Part shown: piece after piece, positions 4,405 through 53,498 of the stretch
How positions within the stretch are numbered: the stretch's first letter is position 1
How the letters are laid out: each line of letters begins with the position of its first letter
Source: Natrialba swarupiae
GTDB lineage: Archaea; Halobacteriota; Halobacteria; Halobacteriales; Natrialbaceae
Assembly (NCBI RefSeq): GCF_008245225.1
Contig: NZ_VTAW01000004.1
Location: 124,001 to 188,000, forward strand
Direction: 5' to 3'
DNA length: 64,000 nt
Notes under the pieces: generated by a model
Told to the model about the DNA's origin: nothing
The model's database searches: none
Seen by the model: only the letters and a program-made list of their open reading frames with translations
Program-made: the position numbers and the translations under genes

Positions 4405-4974
4405 CGTTCCAAACACCGACCGGTGAGTGATACCGACTGCGATGAGTCTGTCCCGGTCGATCGCCGACCGTTCTCCGATCGACCGCCAATCGTGCGGTCT
4501 GCTGTGGGTCCGTTCCGACGTATCCGCCGCATGGCTCGCGGGTACGCAGGTCCATCGGGACAGTGACTCGTATCGGAACAACCCGTATGAGCCCGAACAC
4601 TCGCCGTCGAGCCCATTCTTCGCAGGGGGTATCGTGGCCAGTCGAACGTGTCGCCGCGTATCTGGCGACACCGTGTGTCGATCCCCAGACGAGAAATCTC
4701 TGGACACCGACAATCAAAGAGGACTATTGCCACTCGCGGTGACTGTTCGAGCGTAGTGTAACTCGAGGTGGGCGCTCGATTCGGGGATACGGCTGGCAGC
4801 CGGTTTCCGTCGCTTGAGGACACTGTAACGACGAACGCGGCTCGGAATCGGGTGATGTGGGTGGTTCTGGCCGGGGGAGCTGAGCGTATCGGGCTCCGCA
4901 GGTCGGTACCGGATGATGCTCCGCTGGAGCTGATCCGCCAGAACAGGTAAGCGGTTCGCTCCGAACAGAGTGGT
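4405..4974. other. 570-base stretch without a convincing gene
   Basis: Several open frames exist on both strands (the longest plus-strand one is about 109 codons at 4427) but their residue make-up is Arg/Ser-rich and not haloarchaeal. None has a start with a nearby TATA element. No tRNA, clear hairpin or repeat was seen. It may be decayed coding sequence. Confidence 0.5.
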
Positions 4975-8365: not shown

Positions 8366-8391
8366 TCCATCGTTACAGCAGTCCGTACCAG
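8366..8391. repeat. Family A hairpin element, end fragment
   Basis: These 26 bases match one end of the 88-bp element at 30223-30310 at 23 of 26 positions. Only this end is recognisable; the rest is degenerate or replaced. It lies 15 nt beyond the stop of the lipoprotein gene, with the conserved end facing that gene, as in two other copies. Confidence 0.55.
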
Positions 8392-30222: not shown

Positions 30223-30310
30223 CTGATACGGTTTACTGTCAGTCGGTACCGGCGAACCCGCGATCCGTCTGCGGGTTTCGCCGGTCCATCGGTACAGCAA
30301 TCCGTATCAG
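30223..30310. repeat. Family A hairpin element, copy 1
   Basis: An 88-bp imperfect palindrome bounded by CTGATACGGTTTACTGT and its near-inverse ending CCGTATCAG. The inner stem pairs about GGCGAACCCGC with GCGGGTTTCGCC. On the minus strand it reads CTGATACGGATTGCTGTA first. The stop codon (TGA) of the zinc-ribbon gene at 30307 lies inside this terminal sequence. Confidence 0.8.
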
Positions 30311-30507
30311 GCGTTGTTCATGCGCTGACTCTCGCGGTTCCCACACCGCTGACATTCCCGAACGCGGTAGGGTTCGCGGGAGTACCGCGCGTTTTCCCCT
30401 TCGTCGCCCTCGGTTACGAGTTGGACCGTCACTTCGTGTAACGTATCCATCTCACACACTTCACATGGTTCGGTCATCCCGTTTGAGACGTCATTAGTCG
30501 TTGCCAT
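30307..30507 (-). CDS. Small zinc-ribbon protein
   Basis: The 66-residue product has two CxxC knuckles, PCEVCEM and ECQRCGN, on either side of an acidic strand region. It fits the very short haloarchaeal zinc beta-ribbon proteins (DUF7835-like; recalled, not verified). The start ATG at 30507 lies about 27 nt after a TATA-like TGATATATGATG, so it is likely leaderless. The last codon reads GCC and the TGA stop is supplied by the end of the family A element. Confidence 0.75.
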   Translation of the reverse strand: MATTNDVSNGMTEPCEVCEMDTLHEVTVQLVTEGDEGENARYSREPYRVRECQRCGNRESQRMNNA

Positions 30508-30671: not shown

Positions 30672-30756
30672 CTGATACGGATTGCTGCCCCTGTGTACTG
30701 GCGAACCCGCGACCTGTCTGCGGGTTCGCCGGTACCGACTGACTGCAAACCGTCTC
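30672..30756. repeat. Family A hairpin element, copy 2
   Basis: It begins CTGATACGGATTGCTG and ends in ACTGCAAACCGTCTCA. The inner stem GTACTGGCGAACCCGC / GCGGGTTCGCCGGTAC pairs over 16 bp with one G-T wobble. Its right end overlaps the family B element at 30741. Confidence 0.75.
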
Positions 30757-30816
30757 ACACACCCATCGCCGAACCGGCTGGCGATCCGGTGTGCAAGACG
30801 TGCAGTGGCTACGATA
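30741..30816. repeat. Family B hairpin element, copy 2 (reverse orientation)
   Basis: The reverse complement reads CTATCGTAGCCACTGCACG, nearly the same as the left end of the element at 47866 (TATAGTAGCCACTGCAAG). The central stem ATCGCC/GGCGAT and flanking CACAC/GTGTG are shared. It abuts the family A copy 2. Confidence 0.7.
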
Positions 30817-47774: not shown

Positions 47775-47865
47775 CAGGTACCTCGAGGACGAACGTCGGT
47801 ACCGCGAGAGGAACGTTCGCGTCGCGAGGACGAAGATGTCCGATAGTACTCGTTTCAACGTGTGC

Positions 47866-47949
47866 TATAGTAGCCACTGCAAGTCATTGCACACCTGATC
47901 GCCAGACGGGTCGGCGATCAGTGTGTAAATCGTTGCAGTTGTTACTATA
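47866..47949. repeat. Family B hairpin element, copy 1
   Basis: An 84-bp element with terminal inverted repeats TATAGTAGCCACTGCAA / TTGCAGTTGTTACTATA (15 of 17 paired). Inside, CACACCTGATCGCC pairs with GGCGATCAGTGTG apart from one bulge. A reverse copy is found at 30741-30816. It lies between the promoter of the membrane-protein pair and the leuA leader. Confidence 0.75.
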
Positions 47950-48013
47950 TAATCGGACTCGCCGTCGCCGGGAACCCGTTCGATTCCGTCAGCGTCGTAG
48001 CGTTGGAACCGGC

Positions 48014-48200
48014 GGCTTTAAGTTACGGCTGTTCGATAGGGAGAAGTACATGCCACGAGATTCGTTCTCAACGCCGGACGAGGATAGAGGAAGTCGGGGC
48101 AACCCGGCTGGGCGTGAAATTCCGCGACGACACTGATCGCAGTTCATCACTCTTGCCTGTACAACACTCCGCCGACCAGACGATTCCATCCGACCGTACA
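48014..48200 (+). promoter_or_regulatory. Leader region of the LeuA/CimA gene with a short ORF
   Basis: A TATA-like GCTTTAAGTTA (about 48014-48024) lies about 30 nt before an ATG at 48050. That ATG opens a 28-residue ORF (MPRDSFSTPDEDRGSRG, ending at the TGA at 48136) in a frame different from the synthase. The synthase GTG is at 48201. The ORF has no leucine or isoleucine run, so classical attenuation is not obvious, and it may not be translated. Confidence 0.4.
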
Positions 48201-52088: not shown

Positions 52089-52290
52089 GGATCGAGCGAC
52101 ACCGAACGCACACAAATAGCTTGGCTGGGAAGCGCCAGGCCCCCGTCAGCCGGTCTGGTGTCCGTCAGTTCCAGCCCACTCGCGACCCCTGGGGCGGTCA
52201 CGCCGGGGCAGTGGGCCACCGCTCCGTATCGGCCCGCGTCGCCCTCTCGGGTCGGTCGGGACTGCGGTTACGGAACGGATCTTGGTCCCG

Positions 52291-52674: not shown

Positions 52675-52710
52675 GTACGCTTACCTGGGAAATTGTCGTA
52701 CCGCCGACAG

Positions 52711-53415
52711 ATGTCCCGTTCAGTCGCCCGACGGATTCGGGACCGGTTCGACCCTGGACGCGTCGTCGTCGCCGTACTCGTCGTGGCCGCCCTCTCCCTG
52801 CCCGGTCTCGAGGTATCCTCGACCGACGTCGTCCGTACGGTCGTGGCTGTCGCCGTCATCGCCCCACTGTTCGGATACCTCGTAGAGCGCTCCGGCGTCG
52901 ACATCGACCTCGGTCTCCTCGTAATCGCGCTGGGAGTGGTCGTCGGCTGGGGAGGGTACGGCCACCTTCAGGACGGCGTCGGCTGGCTCGGCTGGCTCCT
53001 GCTCGCGCTCGGCGGATGGCTCTGTCTCGAGGGACTCGATCGGTTCGTTCGTGACGATAGAACCGACGACGCCGGTGGTGGTCGAATAGACGACGTGAGA
53101 GCCACGTCCGACGAGACGGACGACCTCCCGAGAGCCGAACTCGCGAAACTGAACGAGTGCAACTGCCGGCTGGCCGAGACGCCCCGAGACGCCGACCGTC
53201 CACTGTCCGCCGACGAGATCCGATCCCGCGCGAACCTCACTCCGGCAGAGTTCGACCGCCTGCGCGAGATCCACGGCGAGTCGGGTCCAATCGACCGCCT
53301 GGGGACCGGCTACAGACTCGACGAGCGGGAGATGGGTCTCACGGGCATCCTGCGGACGATCGGACGACGGCTTCTCCGGCCGGTTCGCGTGCTTCGACCG
53401 GGGCGGCGAGCCTGA
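52711..53415 (+). CDS. Membrane protein with C-terminal soluble domain
   Basis: The 234-residue product has about four hydrophobic helices in the first 115 residues (VVVAVLVVAALSLPGLEV, LLVIALGVVVGWGGYGHL and GWLLLALGGWLCLEGLDRFV). A charged domain with a possible helix-turn-helix-like LSADEIRSRANLTPAEFDRL follows. The stop codon TGA is formed by the left end of the family A element (GCC TGA TACGG). Start ATG 52711 preferred to TTG 52693. Confidence 0.7.
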   Translation: MSRSVARRIRDRFDPGRVVVAVLVVAALSLPGLEVSSTDVVRTVVAVAVIAPLFGYLVERSGVDIDLGLLVIALGVVVGWGGYGHLQDGVGWLGWLLLALGGWLCLEGLDRFVRDDRTDDAGGGRIDDVRATSDETDDLPRAELAKLNECNCRLAETPRDADRPLSADEIRSRANLTPAEFDRLREIHGESGPIDRLGTGYRLDEREMGLTGILRTIGRRLLRPVRVLRPGRRA

Positions 53416-53498
53416 TACGGATTGCTGTAACTGTGTACCGCCGCGCCCGGGACCCGTTCTCCGGGAGCGGCGGTACTGACTTACAGTAAACCGTATGA
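53412..53498. repeat. Family A hairpin element, copy 3
   Basis: It begins CTGATACGGATTGCTGTAA and ends TTACAGTAAACCGTATGA. The central stem pairs GTACCGCCGC with GCGGCGGTAC and CCCGG with CCGGG. The stem sequence differs from that of the copies at 30 kb but base pairing is kept. The stop codon of the upstream gene lies inside it. Confidence 0.8.

Follow-up and report, generated by a model that had tools for sequence, protein, structure and literature searches.

A probable MITE-like hairpin element of haloarchaea that duplicates TGA and frequently lies at gene stops

Copies of a short dispersed hairpin, here called family A, occur in the 64,000-nucleotide stretch of Natrialba swarupiae DNA analysed in this study (the window). 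We consider it very likely that family A is a non-autonomous, MITE-like DNA transposable element that inserts at TGA and duplicates the TGA, frequently at the stops of genes. The element is repeated, carries TGA flanks in both orientations and has empty sites with a single TGA; its copies occupy exact stop positions at which relatives also have the stop, are nearly absent from genes, invert their apical loop and decay once resident. In the model we favor, a gene-less near-palindrome of 80 bp would be moved in trans by a separate enzyme and would insert at TGA, preferentially within CGnCGaC-TGA-GACGG, duplicating the TGA. Since haloarchaeal genes often end in GAC TGA, the preferred target would frequently be the gene's own stop, and insertion there would generate TGA-element-TGA and leave the protein unchanged, so that hundreds of copies could accumulate.

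Anatomy, copies and spread of family A

The core of family A is a near-palindrome of about 80 bp, TACGGWTTRCTGT…ACAGYAAWCCGTA, with no gene inside. It is composed of an outer stem of 14 pairs interrupted once by a conserved A.A mismatch, an internal loop that is asymmetric (CGATKTA, facing GTCAKTT as read from its own end), an inner stem of 13 pairs that varies between subfamilies, and an apical loop of about 10 bases. As in MITEs, TACGGWTTRCTGT is present at both ends as terminal inverted repeats, and the element, at 80 bp too short to code, is dispersed in many copies.

All model results reported here come from one covariance model (R2), for which 67 copies were used, and the copy counts are lower bounds. 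The three full copies of the original prediction were all present, with ends displaced by 1-2 bases, to 53413-53498, 30224-30309 and 30673-30757 including the 3-bp flanks, and each folds far below its shuffles in energy (z = -7.3 to -8.5). The plus-strand copy at 53413-53498 (96.4 bits, E = 1.9e-22; DNA fold of -30.9 kcal/mol, z = -8.5) consists of a TGA (53413-53415), the 80-bp core TACGG...CCGTA (53416-53495) and a second TGA (53496-53498). The copy at 30224-30309 was matched on the minus strand (87.5 bits, E = 3.8e-20; z = -7.3) and is flanked by TGA at 30224-30226 and TCA at 30307-30309, so that the direct repeat is not retained. The plus-strand copy at 30673-30757 (73.1 bits, E = 2.2e-16; z = -8.4) is somewhat degraded, with its right end changed from TACGG to GACGG. 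At 8366-8391 (minus strand), where a fragment had been proposed, a single degraded end is present (the 17-mer end with 2 mismatches at 8375-8391), and this piece gave no covariance-model match at E <= 0.1. The model added an old degraded copy, absent from the original prediction, at 4490-4575 (minus strand, E = 4.7e-9), and a possible, very degraded one at 52146-52231 (minus strand, E = 4.4e-6). Allowing up to 3 mismatches, the 17-mer end has 8 matches in the window against 0.08 expected. The sole Rfam match within the window is a leuA-Halobacteria cis-regulatory RNA (RF03001) at 48073-48125 on the plus strand.

The covariance-model search of the genome and its relatives that had been proposed as a check found further copies in abundance. 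The exact ends occur 101 times in the 4.2-Mb genome (G000) and the reversed-pattern control 0 times; model matches number at least 149, a minimum set by the 150 candidates scored. A few copies were matched twice, once per strand, and the genome has at least about 145 copies. In a sister species (G038), 800 kb contained 85 non-redundant copies. Matches were detected in 96/125 genomes and 24/29 genera of the family, and in 165/391 genomes of the class, where those outside the family are weaker. Presence is uneven even within one genus, three genomes of which hold at least 35 (G015), 0 (G016) and 7 (G017) copies. Phage records gave no match to the element and plasmid records one weak match. Two family A copies (L076, ~1000-1144; L078, ~873-1017) have an enlarged center holding GGTGGACTCGCTRCACTC...GGTTCGACTCACCG, and perhaps represent a nested insertion or a composite subfamily.

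Target duplication and position at stop codons

Among the best 60 copies of the sister species G038, the flanks were TGA/TGA in 22, TCA/TCA in 22 and inverted in 2, a direct repeat used equally in both senses, which indicates that the orientation of the element is free. We then have the comparison of target sites between relatives: when the flanks of G015 copies were joined and compared with G017 and G016, they aligned without gaps and with one TGA (459/459 and 447/447 bases against G017). Clean empty sites with a single TGA (TCA) were found for L234 (against L243 and L245) and L236 (against L271), and a single-TGA empty site with a short indel for L224 (against L249); at the L226 site the TCA is absent in G017 and present in G016. 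Since the empty sites of sister species carry one TGA, insertion duplicates the TGA, and the direct flanks and single-TGA empty sites together constitute the target-site duplication typical of MITEs. A TA duplication of the IS630 kind was rejected for family A, as the empty sites show TGA and not TATGA. For the copies of the window's own genome, no clean empty site with both flanks was found in G038, because the intergenic DNA is too diverged. The mobility of a hairpin-type MITE, one of the two explanations originally offered, is thus borne out by direct TGA flanks, orthologous empty sites and a set of copies, ~95% identical, that stem from a recent burst; that proposal was silent on the TGA target duplication, the insertion at stop codons and the loop inversion.

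The target consensus, CGnCGaC-TGA-GACGG, holds also at sites that were not called stops, some of which may be missed genes. Its right half, GACGG, resembles the element end TACGG, and arm-like sequence lies beside 14.3% of element TGAs as compared with 5.6% of all TGAs, both of which would fit an element moved by a site-specific recombinase, with recombination between a circle junction, CCGTA-TGA-TACGG, and TGA sites whose halves resemble the arms. We regard such a mechanism as decidedly unlikely, given hundreds of divergent target sites and no evidence of a circle or an integrase; to our knowledge, moreover, known recombinases have a core longer than 3 bp. Three family A copies (L011, L064 and L067) have a common right flank, TGATTGCCGGTCGAYCG, which suggests that the repeated unit is larger or that a composite target is preferred. 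Ends like TGATACGG that run on as TCTGCGAT(C)GAC... (L146 ~670-690 and 790-810; L066 1335; the right flank of L030 and the left flank of L167) may belong to a third hairpin family or be remnants of ends.

The expectation that the hairpins carry no coding sequence was nearly correct, except that in two of the three full copies of the window the flanking TGA or TCA is the stop codon of the neighboring gene. A 240-aa ORF at 52693-53415 (plus strand) stops at the TGA that flanks the 53413 copy on the left, its translation ending ...RPGRRA* at 53415; homologues within the family end RPAG* or RPSG*, with the TGA at most 1-2 codons off. Likewise, the 66-aa DUF7835 gene at 30307-30507 (minus strand; matched end to end by Pfam PF25205, 1-66/66, E = 4.5e-29), whose translation ends MNNA*, takes its stop from the 30224 copy, whose right-hand TCA reads TGA on the minus strand. 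Genes were called throughout by a home-made codon-usage model. Of the 85 copies of G038, 32 lie exactly at the stop of a neighboring gene and 0/85 inside genes; non-genic TGAs drawn at random lie at such a stop in 7.6% of cases (p = 6e-15). Three copy sets gave 38-42% of copies at the exact stop position and 3/352 called inside a gene. Young copies in G015 (median identity 0.95) were at a stop in 17/20 cases, or 16/20 without the doubtful L236 call, and for six G015 genes the relatives without the element end at the same TGA, showing that the stop is older than the insertion.

The CGACTGA motif alone yields stops in 28% of its TGAs in G038, and recognition of stop codons as such is therefore not required. 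We infer that the bias is created jointly by a target preference that coincides with GAC TGA gene ends and by purifying selection removing intragenic insertions. Insertion at gene ends that leaves the product intact is familiar from integrases at the 3' ends of tRNA genes and from Tn7 downstream of glmS; those systems use one or few conserved sites, whereas family A is found at stop codons across many unrelated genes.

Pairing of the stem and inversion of the apical loop

That the central stem differs between copies and pairs in each was upheld in the 67-copy alignment, in which 92.0% of cells pair, compared with 83.0% after shuffling and 30-40% in slid controls. Double-change cells numbered 155 against 61.6 +/- 5.8 in shuffled alignments, a value reached in 0/500 shuffles. 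This covariation is real and separates subfamilies: pairing is kept between lineages and lost in resident copies. Between near-identical copies, inner-stem differences comprised 80 single pair-affecting changes and 2 double ones, and such single unpaired changes mean that resident copies decay.

Strong hairpins, covariation between subfamilies and a stop codon immediately adjoining 38-42% of the copies are what would be expected of a structured RNA, or of a 3'-UTR stabilizer or terminator, selected by the host and sited after stops where it is functional. In gene orientation, G.T mismatches also exceed A.C mismatches marginally (164 vs 130, p = 0.05), which is at most a hint of RNA selection. 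Against this stand the single pair-breaking changes between near-identical copies, the location of more than half of the copies away from stops, and the variable presence among sister species; moreover, no T-run follows the stem and no copy of the element has an Rfam match. We therefore consider a host-selected RNA very improbable, and the originally suggested selection on RNA as the reason for the pairing was not upheld, with single changes so predominant in the inner stem, G.T and A.C nearly balanced and no T-run terminator. An RNA terminator in particular was rejected on the uncompensated stem changes and the lack of a T-run.

A different origin of the pairing is suggested by the apical loop. 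Between copies with at most 3 differences outside the loop, the loop was in the same orientation in 666 pairs and inverted in 427 (39%), the pairs being non-independent. Such inversion is a sign that the DNA folds into a hairpin or cruciform, and implies that the inner arms fold or recombine as DNA. The pairing kept between lineages thus points to a DNA-level process, and copying from arm to arm, or a requirement of the moving lineage, could produce the covariation. A broader and rather doubtful conjecture is that the insertion machinery of a class of haloarchaeal mobile hairpins exploits the GAC TGA acidic-codon/stop signature as a safe harbor, and that these hairpins move through a folded-DNA intermediate. 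At that stage each arm would serve as template for the other and the loop would turn over roughly once per move, which would explain both the covariation and the loop inversion.

Candidate mobilizing enzymes and comparison with known systems

A hairpin with an internal loop, an apical loop inverted at near equilibrium frequency, and TGA at both ends with single-TGA empty sites would also fit an HUH (Y1) transposase, of IS200/IS605 or REP type, that moves the element in single-stranded form and has TGA as the cleavage sequence on both sides, in which case the duplication would be only apparent. This appears unlikely: the terminal inverted repeats are long and genuine, the hairpin foot adjoins the TGA with neither spacer nor guide sequence in between, both orientations are used equally (22/22), and family B, a relative, has its match in an IS630-type DDE element. 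Family A resembles the REP/BIME palindromes of RAYT transposases in being a short, extragenic palindrome with hundreds of copies, and differs from them in its long inverted termini, its TGA duplication and the TGA flank in place of a GTAG/CGTC tag at the hairpin foot.

Family B has the same architecture as family A, with a length of 84 bp and TATAGTARCMACTG ends that are usually flanked C...G, as in CTAG. The two families have the subterminal boxes CTGWAACGATTTAC and CTGWAAGTCATT in common. One family B member lies in the window at 47865-47950 (minus strand; matched by the model at E = 4.4e-8 and identified by the family B consensus), with the same boxes and other ends and target; further copies are present in L181, L185, L190, L194, L199, L207, L208, L210, L220, L247, L258 and L365. 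In G015 and G038 we found IS630-type (DDE_3) elements of ~1,055 bp with TAGTAGTCGTTAGAA-like TAGTAG ends and a TA duplication, encoded in two overlapping frames (L428 935-1990; L427 201-1253 and 1429-2484); related IS630-type copies ending in CTATAG-TAG are spread through the family. The L428 copy is itself inserted within a family B hairpin. Family B matches these haloarchaeal IS630/Tc1-mariner (DDE_3) elements in its TAGTAG ends and TA flanks, and a TA target duplication is present in its putative IS630-type partner; judged by these ends, family B is likely an IS630-type MITE. The shared boxes offer a lead that family A may be a related product with a changed end and target. Because this sister family shares the subterminal boxes and has IS630-like ends, an IS630/Tc1-mariner-like transposase is our leading guess for the enzyme that moves family A. 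Unlike these elements, family A ends in TACGG and duplicates the 3 bp TGA instead of TA; since IS630 enzymes duplicate TA, this assignment of the enzyme class may be wrong.

A more specific candidate is a relative of an insertion sequence with TGATACT ends in genome G079, mobilizing family A as an IS630-type MITE. In that genome, four near-identical IS630-type copies of ~1,075 bp (L429, L431, L435 and L439) with TSA-TACTGATGG ends coexist with many near-identical family A copies. However, TGA/TCA flanks are as frequent as TGA/TGA around the insertion sequence, which fits TA duplication inside TSATATSA, and its termini and those of the element are alike at ~11/16 bases, as judged by eye; we hold this candidate to be possible, with the balance tilted against it. 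An autonomous element with TACGG...CTGT ends was found neither in 1.85 Mb of loci nor near 62 DDE transposase loci, and none emerged from solo ends, ends 150-8,000 bp apart, PF01609/PF13358/PF13586 loci or relatives of the G079 IS630-type transposase. Because no autonomous partner was found in the 1.85 Mb of loci or at the 62 DDE loci, we call family A MITE-like rather than a MITE. It shares with MITEs the terminal inverted repeats, target duplication, high copy number and lack of coding capacity, and departs from them, apart from the missing partner, in its strict TGA target and in being, as a whole, a hairpin with an inverting loop.

The SMR-A and SMR-B elements of Haloquadratum walsbyi are ~80-110 bp long, geneless and present in many copies, with prominent inverted ends and no recognized transposase; they are reported to show no target duplication and to insert into other mobile elements, and had a mobilization that was called enigmatic in 2011 (PMC3119063). 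By their description, SMRs are like family A in size, in inverted ends unrelated to known transposons, in copy number and in their haloarchaeal host, and unlike it with respect to the duplicated TGA and the insertion at gene ends. In the open-access literature we found no description of family A or of a stop-codon-duplicating MITE. Our verdict is a MITE/SMR-like element with an unusual, gene-sparing target.

With defined ends, a defined target and a candidate enzyme class, the mobilization of haloarchaeal SMRs becomes testable. For annotators, the results are a reason to mask such hairpins instead of calling them regulatory RNAs, and they caution that a repeat family may show strong covariation in its stem through palindrome dynamics at the DNA level, without RNA function. 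An element that rebuilds the stop it splits would be a clean case of a harm-avoiding genomic parasite, and would explain how hundreds of copies come to abut genes in compact genomes.
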